Below, piece after piece: positions 10,615-16,750 of a DNA stretch of 35,165 bases (position 1 is the stretch's first letter; every line of letters starts with the position of its first letter). A program made the translations under genes and the position numbers. The notes under the pieces were generated by a model, which did no database searches, was not told where the DNA came from, and worked only from the letters and a program-made list of their open reading frames with translations. The DNA lies in contig JAQBPN010000105.1 in assembly GCA_028287505.1 (NCBI GenBank), positions 1-35,165 on the forward strand, given 5' to 3'. The stretch is from Fibrobacterota bacterium. Its GTDB lineage: Bacteria > Fibrobacterota > Fibrobacteria > UBA11236.

Positions 10615-10664
10615 GGAAAAGTGGTGGAGTCTGGGAGAGTCGAACTCCCGACATCCTGCTTGCA
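10615..10664. repeat. 50-bp direct repeat, right copy (inside tRNA-Ala and its flank)
   Basis: It is the partner of 8468-8517. It covers the tRNA from the anticodon to CCA plus seven flanking bases. Confidence 0.75.
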
Positions 10665-10697
10665 AAGCAGGCGCTCTACCAACTGAGCTAAGACCCC
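10622..10697 (-). tRNA. tRNA-Ala (anticodon TGC)
   Basis: A 76-base tRNA read on the minus strand with CCA encoded. The 5' end is GGGGTCTTAGCTCAG and the anticodon loop is CTTTGCAAG (TGC). The T-arm is GGGAGTTCGACTCTCCC. The acceptor stem contains the G3-U70 wobble pair, the classic alanine identity element. A terminator follows directly. Confidence 0.97.
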
Positions 10698-10827: not shown

Positions 10828-11325
10828 CTAGCCTCCCAGAGGCAAGCGCACCCCGGCGCCCATGCGCACCCAGATTTCACCCGGACCCTCCCCCAGCAAT
10901 ACGCTCGGCGTAAGGGTCCCGTACAATTGGAACCTGTCCCGGAAATCATACAGGGCCGTGGCATCCATCCCAAGGTTCCACCGCAGCGCCTCGTCACGGA
11001 CGCGGACCATGCCCAGATGCATGCCTATCATGGGCCGGAAGTCGCCGCGGTATGGGGCGAAATAGGAAACCAGCTCGCCGTCGGTGATTTCCATCGCCGC
11101 CTGCGCTCCCGTTCCGGAGCGGGAGGGAAGGAAGTTGTAGTCGAGGCGCAACTCAAGCTCGGTGGATTCATTGGCGCCGTAGGCCAGGCCCATCCCGCCG
11201 CCCATGCCGAATTGGTGGCTGCGATCCCAAAAGGCCGTGCGGGCGCCCGCGTCCAGAAACAAGGAACCGGATTCCGCGCCCCGGGCGGGGACGAAGGCCA
11301 GGCATGACGCCGCGAAAGCTACCAG
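10828..11325 (-). CDS. Small outer-membrane beta-barrel protein, last gene of the caspase operon
   Basis: About 165 residues: a signal peptide (LLSLVAFAASCLAFVPARGA) and alternating-residue beta strands typical of a small barrel (FGMGGGMGLAYG; TELELRLDYNFLPS; FRPMIGMHLGMVRV; IWVRMGAGVRLPL). The start is not resolved: the frame extends far upstream but contains no ATG, GTG or TTG near the signal peptide. The best candidate is CTG at 11325-11323, overlapping the last codons and TAG of the preceding gene, which would suit translational coupling. Otherwise a small indel may have removed an ATG. Its ligand or partner is unknown; position suggests it belongs with the caspase-barrel protein. Confidence 0.7.
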   Translation of the reverse strand: MVAFAASCLAFVPARGAESGSLFLDAGARTAFWDRSHQFGMGGGMGLAYGANESTELELRLDYNFLPSRSGTGAQAAMEITDGELVSYFAPYRGDFRPMIGMHLGMVRVRDEALRWNLGMDATALYDFRDRFQLYGTLTPSVLLGEGPGEIWVRMGAGVRLPLGG

Positions 11326-11918
11326 AGATAATAGCCGACGGAAAGTCCCGCGGTAGGGCCCGATTCGGCGCTGGTGGCGCTGACTCCCTGGCTCGCATCG
11401 ATCCTGGGGCTCACCACCGCTCCGCCGCCGCCGATGACGTAGAAGTATCCGACCGAGGTGGCGAAATAGAAACCCCGTCGATGCCCGAACTCGTAGCCGA
11501 TATGCATCGGGATCGCCTGCTCCGTCCTGGAAACCAGCCGCGACTTTTCCATCACCACGTTTTCCGCCTTGGTCGTTTTCAAGGCGTAGCCGGTCTCGAA
11601 AAAAAGATGCTGCAGGTAATACTTCCCCATCAGGAAATAACTGTCCGTCCGGCTGCGATCGAGCACGGCCAGCAAGTCGCTGGTTCCGCCGCCGCCGGCG
11701 CAGATCTGGATATGCGGGGAAAAATTCCACGCCAGCTGGATGCCCATGGGTCCCGCCGCCGCGCCGGACTTGAGCGCCAAGCCCATGCGGCCATACTCTT
11801 GCGCCCCCGAAGGCGCCGCGGCGAGCAGCAGCAGGGCCGGCAGCAGCGCCCGGCATCGGCTCAGCATGGCTTTTCGCGCCCGCTGCGTTTCCTTTTTTAT
11901 CGTTCCTGCCGTCCACAT
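11319..11918 (-). CDS. Outer-membrane barrel protein, paralogue of the caspase barrel domain
   Basis: A protein of 199 residues with a signal peptide (CRALLPALLLLAAAPSGAQ, cut near 40) and a beta-barrel-like mature part ending in the aromatic VGYYLW, as OMPs usually do. It lines up with the C-terminal part of the upstream caspase: YFLMGKYY-LFFETGYALK with FALMRKYE-YFFDTGLNLK, and IPMHIGYEFGHRRGFYFATS with VPVHFGMEIGPRRSVFGTIS, plus the final SAESGPTAGLSVGYYLW with TAESGLSFGLALGMYLF. ATG at 11918 has GAGGG about ten bases upstream; ATG at 11867 is an alternative. It is 41 bp from the caspase gene. Confidence 0.82.
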   Translation of the reverse strand: MWTAGTIKKETQRARKAMLSRCRALLPALLLLAAAPSGAQEYGRMGLALKSGAAAGPMGIQLAWNFSPHIQICAGGGGTSDLLAVLDRSRTDSYFLMGKYYLQHLFFETGYALKTTKAENVVMEKSRLVSRTEQAIPMHIGYEFGHRRGFYFATSVGYFYVIGGGGAVVSPRIDASQGVSATSAESGPTAGLSVGYYLW

Positions 11919-11959
11919 GATACTGACGCCCTCGATTGCGCGATCCGCTATGCCGTGAT

Positions 11960-13561
11960 TCAGAAGAGGTACATGCCCAAGGCCAGCCCGAAGCTCAAGC
12001 CCGATTCCGCCGTATGGCCGTGGGCGAACGAGCCCGCGGGAGTGCGCGCGGTGACGAAATCGCCGCCGCCGGTCAGCATCATCAGGTAGCCCACGGAAAT
12101 GGTTCCGAACACGGAGCGGCGCGGCCCGATTTCCATTCCGAAGTGCACGGGAACCCCCACTTCCCACCCGGAGTTGGAAACGGTCGCGGAGGAGTCGGTC
12201 ACTTTCACCGTGGATACTTTCAGGTTCAGTCCGGTATCGAAAAAATAGGCGCCTTCGTACTTCCGCATCAGGGCGAAGACGCTGTTCTCGGTGACGGTCT
12301 TGTCCAACAGGGATGCATACTGGATGCCGGGCGGAGGCCCGGGTACGCCGAAACCGGCTTGCAATTGCAGTTCCGGATCCAGGTTGTACAACAGGGAAAG
12401 CCCCAGGATGCCGGTGCCTTCCCCCGCCTTGACGCTGAGGCCCCACCTGCGGTCGGGTCCCATGGGATACATCACGGTGGGCGGTCCCGGTATCACCTGG
12501 TAGTTGTCGGCCAGGCTGCCCTTGATCTGGTTCACCACTTGCGTCTGCTTCCTGAGGGATGCGGTGTTGAAATCGGAGACCTTGCCGCCGGCGACGCTCA
12601 CCTCCGCCACGCGCCATTGATCCTTTTCCACCTTGAGAACGTTGTAGTTCCCTTCCGGCAGGGAGATGAGCAGCTCGCGTTCCGGCCCTTTATAGAAATC
12701 CGCCAGGATGCTGCCGCGATCCTTGTCCACCACCAGGTATTTGCCGTCCTGCCGGAAACCGAAGACCAGACCGGACCGGCCCTGGGTCAGATCGGCCAGC
12801 ACGATATCCCCTTCGCCGTAGATGCGGAACTGGTAGGCGGGATGCTGGATGCCCGCGCGCGTATGCGAGGTGGTCTCGATGGTCATCTGGTACGCGTATT
12901 GGTAGGCCTCGTTGAGGGTAACCTTGCGGTCACCGGAGAGATCCGCGCTGCCGCGCAGGCCGTTGAGCCAATGGTGGGTGAAGACCGAACCCTCCAACTG
13001 GTCCGATTCCTGGGATCGCTCGTCCATGGCGCTGGAAGCGATGATGACCTGGCCGTAAACGTTCTTGAGGCTTTCCAGGGAAATGGGACGCGTGGCGGAA
13101 CCGCCCTTGAAGCGGGTCAGCATGCCGCTCTGGCAGGCGTCGAAAATGCCGATCTTGACCTGGCTGGGAACCGCCTGGAAGGCGTCGCGCAGCCGGTCCA
13201 ACGGGAAGCGGGAGTTCCCCAGCCGCAAGGCGTCCCGATCGGAGTGGCCGGAATAGTAGAAGAGGAAAAGATCCTCCGAGCCCGGAGCGGAGGTTGCCGT
13301 CGTGAGTTTTTTCCGCATGGCCTGCAGGGCCCGGTCCAACCCGGCGCTGTCGCAATCCATCAACACTTGCACGTCGGCTTCTTCGAAACCGGCCAAGCGG
13401 GTCAGCACGTCATGGAAACGCCGGGCATCGCTTTGGGCGAAGCGCAGGGAATCCACTCCCTCGCCGCCGAAATTGTTCCCCACCAACAGGGCGTGGCGGC
13501 GCGCGGAGGCGTCCCCGGCGAGAACCGCCAAGGCCAGCGCCCATGCGGCCGCCTTGTTCAT
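11960..13561 (-). CDS. Secreted caspase-like (C14) protease fused to an outer-membrane barrel
   Basis: A protein of 533 residues: a signal peptide (1-20), then a caspase/metacaspase-like domain (22-255) with the catalytic His106 in FYYSGHSD and Cys143 in GIFDACQSG; ASSAMDERSQES follows as the usual substrate-pocket segment. Residues 207-218 (DLSGDRKVTLNE) fit an EF-hand-like calcium loop, as seen in other bacterial caspases. A PEGA-like beta segment (ELLISLPEGNYNVLKVE) and a C-terminal barrel-like region (about 365-533) follow, ending in GLALGMYLF. A C14 protease attached to a barrel would be cell-envelope located; substrate unknown. It overlaps the anti-sigma gene by ATGA. The fusion is an observation; the location is inference. 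Confidence 0.88.
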   Translation of the reverse strand: MNKAAAWALALAVLAGDASARRHALLVGNNFGGEGVDSLRFAQSDARRFHDVLTRLAGFEEADVQVLMDCDSAGLDRALQAMRKKLTTATSAPGSEDLFLFYYSGHSDRDALRLGNSRFPLDRLRDAFQAVPSQVKIGIFDACQSGMLTRFKGGSATRPISLESLKNVYGQVIIASSAMDERSQESDQLEGSVFTHHWLNGLRGSADLSGDRKVTLNEAYQYAYQMTIETTSHTRAGIQHPAYQFRIYGEGDIVLADLTQGRSGLVFGFRQDGKYLVVDKDRGSILADFYKGPERELLISLPEGNYNVLKVEKDQWRVAEVSVAGGKVSDFNTASLRKQTQVVNQIKGSLADNYQVIPGPPTVMYPMGPDRRWGLSVKAGEGTGILGLSLLYNLDPELQLQAGFGVPGPPPGIQYASLLDKTVTENSVFALMRKYEGAYFFDTGLNLKVSTVKVTDSSATVSNSGWEVGVPVHFGMEIGPRRSVFGTISVGYLMMLTGGGDFVTARTPAGSFAHGHTAESGLSFGLALGMYLF

Positions 13562-14478
13562 GCCTGGGTTTTGCGGAGCAGCAGGGTCTTGACCTCGGCC
13601 CCGCCCTTTCCCGCCGGCTTGCCTTCTCCGCCGGCTCCGGTTTTGCCGGCGCCTTCGGCGCCGCCCGATGAACCGGGGGGAGGCGAAAGCCGGGATACCA
13701 ATCCCTCCAGGTTTCCGGAAGCTCGGGTATAAGCCTCCGTCAACCAGCCTTCCACCCCGCCCCCGGTCAAGGGCAGGGAACCGAAGATCATGACGAAAAG
13801 TTCGGAACCGGGCGAATCGTCCAGGGTCACCGCGAAGGGCAGTGTCTGCTTCTCGCCCGCTTTGGCCGCCAGGCTTACGGGAAGGGTATCGGAGCCCCCG
13901 GTCCGGGCGATTCCGCTATCCGCCGGCGGGTTTTCCCGGGCCGGACGGACGGCTTGCGGCGACCCGTACAGGCTCACGTGGCCGCGCGAGTCGATGCTCG
14001 CCAGGGTAACATAGGCGTGACTGCCGGCCGCGTAGACGAACTGCAGCTCATCCCCGGCCCGATGGAGCTCGGAAGTCTGGCCCGGAGTGACGGCCCCGCC
14101 GCGTTTGAGATAATATTCCAGGACCGGTCCGCCCTTGGTCCGCACGCCCGTTTCCGTGACCACGTTGCCGCGCATGCCGTACCGCAACACCACGGGCACC
14201 AGGACCAGGCACGCGACCAATCCCGCCAAAGCGGGCAGCCAACGGGGAGCCGTGGACTGCTTGCGTCCCGTCTTTTCCTCCGGAAGATGTTTGGCGGCGA
14301 ACTCCCGGAACGGATGGGCCATCAGGTAATCCCGGCGTTCATTCTCCAAAGTGGACAGATGGCCCCGGCATTGGGCGCAATCATCTAGGTGGGCGCGGAC
14401 CGCGCGTTTTTCCTCGGCCCCGCTTTCTCCCAGGAAATAGCGCTCCACCAGGACGCGGTTGCATCGTTCAGTAGGCAT
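13558..14478 (-). CDS. Zinc-finger anti-sigma factor with DUF4384-like periplasmic domain
   Basis: A single-pass membrane protein of 306 residues. The N-terminus has the anti-sigma zinc-finger pattern (RAHLDDCAQCRGHL: His30, Cys34, Cys37), which usually holds the ECF sigma factor inactive. One membrane helix is at about 81-99. The outer domain (about 135-245) resembles DUF4384 (GDELQFVYAAGSHAYVTLAS), a domain often found with bacterial caspases. The C-terminal tail is Gly/Pro-rich. It overlaps the sigma gene by 11 bp and the caspase gene by 4 bp, so the three are translationally coupled. The outer domain may sense the envelope signal; that is inference. Confidence 0.87.
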   Translation of the reverse strand: MPTERCNRVLVERYFLGESGAEEKRAVRAHLDDCAQCRGHLSTLENERRDYLMAHPFREFAAKHLPEEKTGRKQSTAPRWLPALAGLVACLVLVPVVLRYGMRGNVVTETGVRTKGGPVLEYYLKRGGAVTPGQTSELHRAGDELQFVYAAGSHAYVTLASIDSRGHVSLYGSPQAVRPARENPPADSGIARTGGSDTLPVSLAAKAGEKQTLPFAVTLDDSPGSELFVMIFGSLPLTGGGVEGWLTEAYTRASGNLEGLVSRLSPPPGSSGGAEGAGKTGAGGEGKPAGKGGAEVKTLLLRKTQA

Positions 14479-14998
14479 GCTGGCCCTCCAGTTTCTCGAG
14501 CTTCCATTGTTGCGTCGAACGCCGGAAGCGCGTGAGGTGTTTACGGATGGTGGAAGGCGCCAGACCGGTCATGGTCGAGATTTCGTCCTGGGTGTAACCG
14601 TCCCAGTACGTGTACATCACGATGTCCCGGACCATCTTGCTCCAGGGAAACATCAGTTTGCGCAGGATATCGCGGAGGATGATCCGCTTCTCCTCCGAAT
14701 TGTCCGCGTGCAGAGGACTATCCTCCCAGCCGTCCTCGTTGTCCGGACCCTGGAATTTTTTCCGCCGCCAGAGCGATATGCAATGGTTGGTGGTGGTTCT
14801 GTGGATCCAAAACAAGGCGGACTCCCGGTTCTGCACCGATTCCCAGTGTTCCAGCAACTTCAGGAAAACGTCGCTGGTGGCGTCTTGGGCTTCTTCTTTG
14901 GATCGGAGGAAACGCAGGCAGCGACGATAGATCATGGGAGCGTACTTCTCGTACAACTCACGTTGCGTGTCCCTATCGCTCTCTGCCATGTTTTCCAT
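14468..14998 (-). CDS. ECF-type RNA polymerase sigma factor
   Basis: About 176 residues with the two ECF domains: region 2 (RELYEKYAPMIYRRCLRFLR and EEAQDATSDVFLKLLEHWES) and region 4 (VRDIVMYTYWDGYTQDEIST followed by TGLAPSTIRKHLTRFRR as the helix-turn-helix). ATG at 14998 is chosen because GGAG lies just upstream; ATG at 15016 is also open and adds six residues. It is the first gene of the caspase operon and overlaps its anti-sigma gene by 11 bp, the usual arrangement. Such factors commonly activate their own promoter, which should lie in 15000-15250, but no convincing ECF promoter could be picked by eye. Confidence 0.92.
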   Translation of the reverse strand: MENMAESDRDTQRELYEKYAPMIYRRCLRFLRSKEEAQDATSDVFLKLLEHWESVQNRESALFWIHRTTTNHCISLWRRKKFQGPDNEDGWEDSPLHADNSEEKRIILRDILRKLMFPWSKMVRDIVMYTYWDGYTQDEISTMTGLAPSTIRKHLTRFRRSTQQWKLEKLEGQHAY

Positions 14999-15016
14999 TC
15001 CGCTCCGGAACCCCAT

Positions 15017-15655
15017 TCGGCATCCGGGACGTCGATCGCATCCGGAAGATGCGCGTCCCTGCGGGGAAGATGCTGGATTCTTTCGCTTCCAATCGTTTTA
15101 CGCTTCGGACCGTAGGATCCGCTACCCCCCGGCCCGGTCTGATTTGGAGGCCTTGGGCGCCCTCTGACCGGACCCGGTCGCGGAAAGTTAGCTAACGCCC
15201 GGATTCGGCGCAAAAAACCAAAAATTTGACCGGTTTGAATCGCCGTTCGGCCTATTTTCAGAACAGGGGGTTCAGGGATTCAGGATTTGGCCCATAATAA
15301 TGGTCAAAGACATCCAATTAATGCGATTTTCATCACTTTCAGAATCAAGTATCGCTTTTGGGCGTCTTTTAGGGCAAGCTGCGCCGTTCGTTGTACAAAA
15401 AACCATAGCGGATACGGATTTTGTACAAATATTCGCCGCAAGCGTACTCGATTCATTTTCCTTCCCGCCATAGCTTAGAATATCGACTGGGCCGACTCAA
15501 AGGCTGCAGTAGGAGCTGGTGGGGGGTTGATCATTCCATCGCAGGGTTGCGTCCGATTTTTCAATCGGATGTCGCGGTGGTCTTTTGCTTGCGCTCCATG
15601 GGAATCCTGCTGCGGTTGTAGCGGAAAACAATAGGTCGGAGAAGAGGGTATTCCA
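15017..15655. other. 639-bp intergenic region with AT-rich core
   Basis: The region separates the divergent sigma-factor operon and the ThuA-like gene, so it should hold both promoters. The part 15200-15480 is clearly more A+T-rich than its surroundings. It contains a 10-bp palindrome GTTAGCTAAC (15187-15196) and two TTGTACAA palindromes 30 bp apart. The short open frames in it show no signal peptide, ribosome site or recognisable motif. Confidence 0.5.
15391..15428. promoter_or_regulatory. Pair of TTGTACAA palindromes 30 bp apart
   Basis: Identical self-complementary octamers lie at 15391-15398 and 15421-15428, both followed by AA. The 30-bp spacing puts them on the same face of the helix, as for paired operators. 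The nearest downstream gene is the ThuA-like gene (15656). Confidence 0.4.
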
Positions 15656-16750
15656 ATGTTCAAGAAGTCAATCGCCTTTATCGCCGGGTGTTCCCTTTTT
15701 CTCGCTTTGGGAATCGCGAGCGCGCAAACCAATGTGCCTCTAAAGGTCCTGGTAATCAACAAATCGGGGGGATATCCCCACACCGACGCCATCGTCGCCT
15801 TGGGGGATTTGCTCAAGAACAGCGCCACTCCCTGGAATATGGTTGTCACGGCCCAGGACGACGGCGCCAATTTCACGTTGCCTTTCCTGCGCGGATTCAA
15901 CGTCGTGGTCTTCAACAACAACACGTCCCTGGGAAGCGTGATCCAGGGAACGGCGCAAGCCGCATTCATCCAATGGATGCAGGAAGGCGGGGGCGCCATC
16001 GGGTTCCATGGCGCCATGGATCATAGCGACACCTGGAAATGGTACACGGACAACATGGCCCTTTCGAAATTCTCCGGCCATTCCGGTTACTGCGACGCCC
16101 CCAACTCCCAGGTTATGGTCGATACCGTCAAGACTGCCGGCGTTGTCCGGTCGGAAAAGCCGGAATACGCCTCGCTGCTTGCAGTGCTCCCCAAGACGCA
16201 TTGGACCTGGTGCGATGAATGGTACGCCTACACGTCCAATCCCCGCAACCTGGTGGATATGCTCATCACCATCGATGAGAAAACCTTCACCCCCAGTAAC
16301 GTAATGGGCGATCATCCCGTGACTTGGGCCATGAAGCTGCCCGCCGGACCTACGGGAAAGCAGGGCCGGTTCTTCTATTCCTCGCGGGGGCACGCCAAAC
16401 CGGTCTTTGATGACGCGAATACCAAAAGCATGGTCCATTTCGGTCTCTGCTGGGCGGCGGGATTGGGCTTTACCGCCGCCTCCTGCCAGACCGCCACCAC
16501 CTCCGCCTTGGAAATCCCCTTCGTGAAAACCTCCATGGACGCCAGGGTCGTGGACGGTTCGCTTATGATCAAAGTCACGGGTACGGGTGAACACCGGGCG
16601 GAAGTATACGGCTTCAACGGCCGGAAAGTGGCTGAAATCATCACCGAGGGAAACCAGGACATTTCCTTCACCGATTTGCCCAAGGCGAAAATGTATCTGC
16701 TCAAGGTTAAGACGGGGAATCAAGTACTGACCAAACGTATCGTTCTCTGA
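15656..16750 (+). CDS. Secreted ThuA-like protein with C-terminal sorting domain
   Basis: A 364-residue exported protein. Residues 1-24 are a signal peptide (ending ASAQ). Residues 28-260 look like a ThuA domain (class I glutamine-amidotransferase fold): VLVINKSGGYPHTDAI, FNVVVFNNNTSL, FIQWMQEGGGAIGFHGAMDH and a late RFFYSSRGHAK. ThuA-type domains are linked to sugar metabolism, but their reaction is mostly undefined. The last 75 residues form a small beta domain ending LPKAKMYLLKVKTGNQVLTK, like T9SS sorting tails, so it is probably placed on or released from the cell surface. No co-directional partner is close: the next gene starts 141 bp on. Confidence 0.85.
   Translation: MFKKSIAFIAGCSLFLALGIASAQTNVPLKVLVINKSGGYPHTDAIVALGDLLKNSATPWNMVVTAQDDGANFTLPFLRGFNVVVFNNNTSLGSVIQGTAQAAFIQWMQEGGGAIGFHGAMDHSDTWKWYTDNMALSKFSGHSGYCDAPNSQVMVDTVKTAGVVRSEKPEYASLLAVLPKTHWTWCDEWYAYTSNPRNLVDMLITIDEKTFTPSNVMGDHPVTWAMKLPAGPTGKQGRFFYSSRGHAKPVFDDANTKSMVHFGLCWAAGLGFTAASCQTATTSALEIPFVKTSMDARVVDGSLMIKVTGTGEHRAEVYGFNGRKVAEIITEGNQDISFTDLPKAKMYLLKVKTGNQVLTKRIVL

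Follow-up and report, generated by a model that had tools for sequence, protein, structure and literature searches.

What does a caspase-like protease do in one gene cluster with an extracytoplasmic function (ECF) sigma factor and an anti-sigma factor? The question is raised by contig JAQBPN010000105.1 (assembly GCA_028287505.1, Fibrobacterota bacterium), which we analysed as a single window of 35,165 nt, that is, the contig in full; the genome measures 6.07 Mb, and the closest relatives that carry a name are metagenome assemblies labelled 'Fibrobacteres'. On its minus strand, at positions 10828-15016, five open reading frames (ORFs) encode an ECF sigma factor, an anti-sigma factor, a caspase-domain protein and two small outer-membrane-protein-like products. 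The conserved unit consists of the first three genes. We estimate at about 0.6 the probability that these form a surface-to-nucleoid switch, in which the caspase would cut the anti-sigma factor to start release of the sigma factor. Most likely, the caspase would be the site-1 protease for the anti-sigma factor and would cut it at a Lys-Gly pair, K115|G116. The three genes are:

14468..15016, minus strand: ECF sigma factor, 182 amino acids (Pfam Sigma70_r2 and Sigma70_r4_2; TIGR02937).
13558..14478, minus strand: anti-sigma factor with a zf-HC2 domain, a transmembrane (TM) helix and a DUF4384-like beta domain (Pfam; AlphaFold2 model).
11960..13561, minus strand: caspase with a C-terminal outer-membrane barrel, predicted secreted, 533 amino acids (Peptidase_C14; model with a predicted local distance difference test score, pLDDT, of 80).

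The sigma and anti-sigma genes overlap by 11 bp (14468-14478) and the anti-sigma and caspase genes by 4 bp (13558-13561), from which we infer that the three are co-transcribed. The numbers of consensus promoters and terminators within the operon were not clearly above those in shuffled sequence.

The order of these three genes is conserved far above chance. Precisely, the order sigma, anti-sigma, caspase was found in 37 of the 41 loci in whole genomes of relatives; among 80 caspase loci in public genomes, at least 74 have the anti-sigma gene directly upstream of the caspase gene and at least 66 show all three genes in this order. Exceptions were mostly contig ends, artefacts of domain picking or a Myxococcus group without the sigma gene. 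The trio occurs in Fibrobacterota, many Myxococcota and Spirochaetota, often in several copies per genome. A search of 61 genomes found caspase relatives in 52, and genomes of the same genus each hold several. In the genome scan a 14-member caspase alignment worked as query, whereas one of 27 diverse caspases was too divergent. The sequence-only reading had proposed a five-gene order; in other Fibrobacterota the order of the three-gene core is kept and that of the five genes is not.

Myxococcus-type genomes present a further arrangement. They hold a Lys-Gly anti-sigma gene and a caspase-barrel gene without a sigma gene (L098, L100, L103) and, in the same genomes, a sigma gene, a Lys-Gly anti-sigma gene and a stand-alone barrel gene without a caspase (L190, L191). 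The module may be split or duplicated there and act in trans.

The distribution of the module also bears on a role in anti-phage defence or self/non-self recognition, which had been suggested from the sequence. Such a switch would be Craspase-like, with phage contact at the barrel triggering the caspase, and type III-E CRISPR loci do offer a precedent of ECF sigma factors controlled by caspase-family proteases (PMC10028731). We searched the five proteins with the PADLOC models and obtained no match at E < = 0.01 in this library, which covers described systems. Moreover, this is a chromosomal module conserved and multi-copy along the phylum, not patchy. We regard a defence role as very improbable.

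The third gene encodes a caspase. Its product scored 56.2 bits against Peptidase_C14 (cut-off 21.4), and the model built from 43 sequences (pLDDT 80) comprises a caspase domain (residues 21-260), a beta domain (263-340), a disordered linker (342-366) and a barrel (373-533). Gene-4 barrels, which the caspase alignment had misplaced onto the protease domain, were left out of the structure prediction. The parts of the protein on which the argument turns are:

13244-13246, minus strand: catalytic His106, present in 109/109 trio caspases.
13133..13135, minus strand: catalytic Cys143, present in 109/109 trio caspases.
11963..12445, minus strand: 8-stranded OmpA-like outer-membrane beta-barrel, residues 373-533, ending ...GMYLF (model; OprF/CarO matches).

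By sequence and by fold, metacaspases are the closest solved structures. Foldseek matched the model to the yeast metacaspase Yca1 (E 5.7e-8) and to the OprF barrel (E 5.1e-5), and VIA-align superposed it on metacaspase 4 with a Z of 21.5 and a root-mean-square deviation of 2.7 over 208 aligned residues. H106, C143 and D141 are invariant among the 109 trio caspases, and D45 too, bar one gap. In the alignment D45 falls on the Asp of the N-D-[AV] motif of metacaspases, and both D45 and D141 match acidic residues of these enzymes. The secreted caspase-like C14 protease with Cys143 that had been read from the sequence is thus borne out by the Pfam score and by a predicted structure with a complete active-site dyad, H106 and C143; a caspase fold lacking a plausible active site would have spoken against it. 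In outer-membrane proteins, an even-stranded barrel together with a signal peptide places the N-terminal domain in the periplasm. Since this protein begins with a signal peptide and its C-terminal barrel has an even number of strands, its caspase domain is expected to be periplasmic; a signal peptide is also predicted on most caspase relatives. In the Fibrobacter-type trio caspases (L044, L046, L048-L054) long G-x-Q-type repeats precede the final barrel strands and possibly form a variable surface part.

The sigma factor and the anti-sigma factor are equally recognisable. The former matched Sigma70_r2 with 57.3 bits (E 1.4e-15) and Sigma70_r4_2 with 30.3 bits (E 3.2e-7), both above the Pfam cut-off, and TIGR02937 with 73 bits, also above cut-off; orthologues at the same position share 83-92% identity in three relatives and 53% in a fourth. 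The latter carries a zinc-binding (ZAS-type) domain, with a zf-HC2 score of 24.7 bits against a cut-off of 22.2; 17 of 44 anti-sigma relatives match zf-HC2 at E < = 0.01 and the others have lost the HC2 residues. Its AlphaFold2 model (pLDDT 82) comprises the zf-HC2 domain at residues 11-38, cytoplasmic helices to residue 64, a TM helix at 81-100, a disordered linker at 104-112 and the DUF4384-like beta domain at 119-303. This last domain scored 17.4 bits in the present member, below the cut-off of 27, and 28 of the 44 relatives match DUF4384 at E < = 0.01. A search of its predicted periplasmic fold against the PDB returned no match at E < = 0.001. One TM helix is found in nearly all anti-sigma relatives, an RseA-like plan with a single TM helix and a domain that, in the predicted orientation, is periplasmic. 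The Pfam matches agree with the initial assignment of an ECF sigma factor and a zinc-finger anti-sigma factor with a DUF4384-like outer domain, and its idea of a regulatory switch coupled to a caspase at the outer membrane, in an envelope setting, is supported.

How, then, could the caspase address the anti-sigma factor? In caspases the processing site is the loop after the catalytic Cys, and metacaspases cleave after Arg or Lys. For orthocaspases, too, cleavage following positively charged residues is described (PMC6426788). We considered as candidate sites the following three pairs:

14131..14136, minus strand: anti-sigma K115-G116, predicted cleavage site, in R-x-K-G context within the juxtamembrane periplasmic linker (conservation; coil in the model).
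13103..13108, minus strand: caspase K152-G153, in the loop following Cys143, where self-processing is predicted (109/109; low-confidence loop 150-164).
12518..12523, minus strand: caspase K347-G348, between protease and barrel, where release is predicted ([KR]G in 105/109; linker 342-366).

The conserved Lys-Gly pair of the anti-sigma factor, matched by the sites in the caspase loop and barrel linker, is the new observation here. K115 is present in 107/107 anti-sigma factors and G116 in 106/107, which makes them the most conserved residues of the protein, above those of the zinc finger. The pair lies in a modelled coil between the TM helix and the first strand, mostly as R-x-K-G, and its flanks are variable. 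In the caspase, K152-G153 again stands mostly in an R-x-K-G context, in a flexible loop directly after Cys143, and [KR]347-G348 falls within a linker of otherwise variable sequence. The only other basic-Gly positions found in more than 60 of the 109 caspases were 169-170 (81/109) and 203-204 (73/109), both outside flexible segments.

As a control we took 19 ordinary zf-HC2 membrane anti-sigma factors outside the module, drawn from some of the genomes holding trios, and only one had a Lys-Gly within 40 residues past the TM helix. Chance occurrence of the pair in the anti-sigma factor was ruled out by this set. The DUF4384 Pfam model gave no control from outside the module, as every match in the four genomes searched was an anti-sigma factor of the module's own family. 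Among members of this family without a caspase, two have no Lys-Gly and a third reads K-S-G.

The sites in the two proteins also vary together. Among divergent Myxococcota, five pairs (from about two lineages) with Arg-Gly in the anti-sigma factor have Arg-Gly in the caspase loop as well, and in pairs with the same type of caspase a Lys-Gly anti-sigma factor is accompanied by a Lys-Gly loop in 13/13; two mixed Lys/Arg pairs were seen among the divergent trios. Arg at P3 (the R of R-x-K-G) is shared by loop and anti-sigma site, with a Fisher p of 7e-4 for 60 representatives at 80% identity and of 4e-4 for representatives at 60% identity plus the divergent pairs. In the expected register, P4 and P2 come 16th and 36th for excess identity among 58,319 two-protein column pairs, against a background that includes shared ancestry. 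On the simplest reading, the anti-sigma site would copy, as a substrate, the site at which the caspase processes itself.

Several points weigh against cleavage of the anti-sigma factor by the caspase. Divergent caspases of Myxococcota whose active site reads ATCHSG (among L202-L205 and L213-L220) are paired with Lys-Gly anti-sigma factors and have no Lys-Gly in the loop. In the 29 main-family representatives alone (60% identity) the P3 Arg test was not significant (p 0.30), normalised mutual information at P2 and P4 was only in the top 3-6%, and covariation of the two sites is inflated by related sequences. Some trio caspases have no obvious C-terminal barrel, and one type of locus with sigma, Lys-Gly anti-sigma and barrel genes has no adjacent caspase, the same genome having a caspase elsewhere. 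Since some C14 proteins outside the module carry Arg-Gly after the active site, the Lys/Arg-Gly of the loop may be an ancestral self-processing feature; and as only three residues separate K115-G116 from the first strand of the beta domain, the pair could be structural.

The last two points lead to a different explanation, in which all Lys-Gly pairs would be structural or folding features (the start of the beta domain, a contact of the caspase loop) and the genes would form a joint envelope-stress operon with no proteolysis between the proteins. The position of K115-G116 directly before the first strand and the Arg-Gly in non-module C14 proteins favour it, whereas all three pairs lie in or beside segments that are unstructured in the models, their flanking residues vary, and the switch between Lys and Arg is common to both proteins. 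We hold this explanation to be quite unlikely.

Two observations on these outlying caspases stand apart. The ATCHSG-like family (L203, L205, L213, L215, L217, L219, L220) follows sigma and Lys-Gly anti-sigma genes, and its activation loop has no such pair at the usual place. In four C14 proteins outside the module (L206-L209) an R-G-L behind the active site is conserved; self-processing at such a motif may be general among bacterial C14 proteins.

We favour cleavage of the anti-sigma factor by the caspase, a step absent from the sequence-only reading, because gene order and tight spacing are conserved, the anti-sigma factors have a single TM helix and the caspases have signal peptides; because the Lys/Arg-Gly pairs in the anti-sigma linker and in flexible segments of the caspase match and covary; because the dyad and acidic residues are conserved, in a protein that resembles metacaspases, and orthocaspases cleave after basic residues; and because Lys-Gly is rare in ordinary anti-sigma factors and the genome encodes an M50 family protein, of the site-2 protease type (E 3.4e-63). 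A full proteolytic relay across the periplasm, in which a barrel-anchored caspase would respond to a surface signal, release itself at K347|G348 and then cut at K115|G116 as the site-1 protease of a widespread sigma pathway, is a more tentative proposal, to which we give somewhat less than even odds. In the switch that we favour, the zf-HC2 domain in the cytoplasm would hold the sigma factor; it belongs to the anti-sigma factor, whose single helix is predicted to span the inner membrane with the DUF4384-like domain in the periplasm, while the exported caspase is predicted to hang in the periplasm from its outer-membrane barrel by the disordered linker. A signal at the barrel or envelope would lead to maturation of the caspase by a cut of the activation loop after K152; a cut after K347 would free it from the barrel, and the freed protease would cut the anti-sigma factor after K115, on the periplasmic side close to the inner membrane. 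The breakdown would be completed by an RseP-like M50 protease, and the released sigma factor would transcribe its own operon and possibly other targets. Gene 4 encodes a copy of the barrel without the protease, which might serve as another sensor or might regulate the barrel of the caspase.

The targets of the sigma factor bear on the direction of this circuit. Upstream of the operon we found:

15095..15195, minus strand: candidate promoter/operator, in which alignment with the two closest orthologues shows two conserved blocks.

Block 1 is TTAGCTAACTTTCCG (15181-15195) and contains the palindrome GTTAGCTAAC; block 2 is TAGCGGATC-N12-GCGTAAAAC (15095-15124). A regulon search of this genome gave one match per block, in the promoter region of this operon; the sigma factor may therefore act mainly on its own operon. 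Such a result would also fit a caspase that is the output of the circuit. In that case the sigma/anti-sigma pair would sense envelope stress through the DUF4384-like domain and another site-1 protease, and would induce the caspase, which would degrade envelope proteins or kill the cell; the anti-sigma Lys-Gly would be cut by the other protease or be structural. In fact, co-transcribed ECF operons often encode their own regulon, and prokaryotic caspases are mostly tied to cell death in the literature (PMC3501461). However, a caspase acting as output accounts neither for an anti-sigma site that matches the caspase loop site and switches jointly with it between Lys and Arg, nor for the absence of this site from ordinary anti-sigma factors. 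We therefore consider it unlikely.

The two remaining genes of the cluster, and the surroundings, are as follows.

11319..11918, minus strand: gene 4, signal peptide and stand-alone barrel, a paralogue of the caspase barrel.
10828..11325, minus strand: gene 5, small outer-membrane-protein-like ORF with an uncertain start (CTG 11325 or TTG 11262).

Gene 4 is separated from the caspase gene by a gap of 41 bp if it starts at ATG 11918. Its product is 37% identical to the caspase's own barrel (E 3e-20), and it follows the caspase gene in 4/4 of the closest orthologous loci. The frame of gene 5 has no ATG, GTG or TTG between CTG 11325 and TTG 11262. None of the related trio loci examined holds a relative of gene 5, whose homologues sit elsewhere; for this reason the five-gene operon was rejected as a unit. 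Hence, of what the sequence-only reading proposed, the overlaps of 11 and 4 bp and the 41-bp gap stand, and the 7-bp overlap of gene 5 falls, as it would need the CTG start; genes 1-3 are conserved and gene 5 belongs to the operon in no relative examined. Both ORFs beside the caspase are outer-membrane-protein-like, as suggested there, although the main barrel is in the caspase gene itself and gene 4 is its paralogue. Beyond gene 5 lies a tRNA-Ala gene (10622-10697). Divergent from the operon and upstream of it, at 15656-16750, is a gene whose product has a ThuA domain and, by a weak match, a C-terminus resembling Por_Secre_tail.

Compared with known systems, the association of sigma factor and caspase is not new: operons with sigma-70 and metacaspase genes, the same association as in the present operon, were reported in 2012 by Asplund-Samuelsson et al. 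in Myxococcus, Anaeromyxobacter, Haliangium, Sorangium, Ralstonia and Fibrobacter (PMC3501461). That article names sigma factors only, without the term 'anti-sigma', and the portions consulted give no outer-membrane barrel, cleavage sites or mechanism. In the literature searched, which covers a minority of the subscription journals, we found no description of a caspase at the outer membrane that cuts an anti-sigma factor. Few roles of bacterial caspase homologues are established, and these proteins are usually discussed in terms of cell death; the matching predicted cut sites suggest that the protease would instead release a brake, a use of a caspase other than cell death. If so, a large family in Fibrobacterota, Myxococcota and Spirochaetota would gain a defined substrate, cut site and output, and prokaryotic caspase function would become testable in Myxococcus xanthus and Fibrobacter succinogenes.

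ECF genes have also been described near CHAT caspases (PMC8999054) and near EACC2 caspases (PMC8195603). The EACC1/EACC2 systems share with this module a bacterial caspase domain with variable partners, which in EACC2 loci may include an ECF sigma factor (PMC8195603), but here the EACC1 model NF047832 scored 67.6 bits against a cut-off of 140, and there was no TPR or TRADD-N match. In Craspase (CASP-sigma; Cas7-11, Csx29, Csx30) a caspase-clan protease likewise cuts the inhibitor of an ECF sigma factor (PMC10028731); that protease is of TPR-CHAT type and driven by a CRISPR RNA complex, whereas ours is an exported C14 caspase with a barrel, and Pfam gave Peptidase_C14, not CHAT (a weak CHAT match in 1/27 relatives; cas genes were not searched for). 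The order sigma, anti-sigma and outer-membrane barrel with an N-terminal periplasmic part addressing the anti-sigma factor recalls FecI-FecR-FecA. Here, however, the anti-sigma factor and caspase matched only zf-HC2/DUF4384 and Peptidase_C14 in Pfam, with no FecR or TonB-dependent receptor match, the barrel has 8 strands against the 22 of the receptor, and the periplasmic part is a protease. Lastly, in RseA/DegS/RseP a single-TM anti-sigma factor is cut in the periplasm and then by an M50 protease, as encoded here too, which frees the ECF sigma factor. There site-1 cleavage belongs to DegS, an inner-membrane PDZ serine protease; here it would belong to a caspase tethered to the outer membrane, which would make it a new class of site-1 protease, at the outer membrane, in sigma control by regulated proteolysis.

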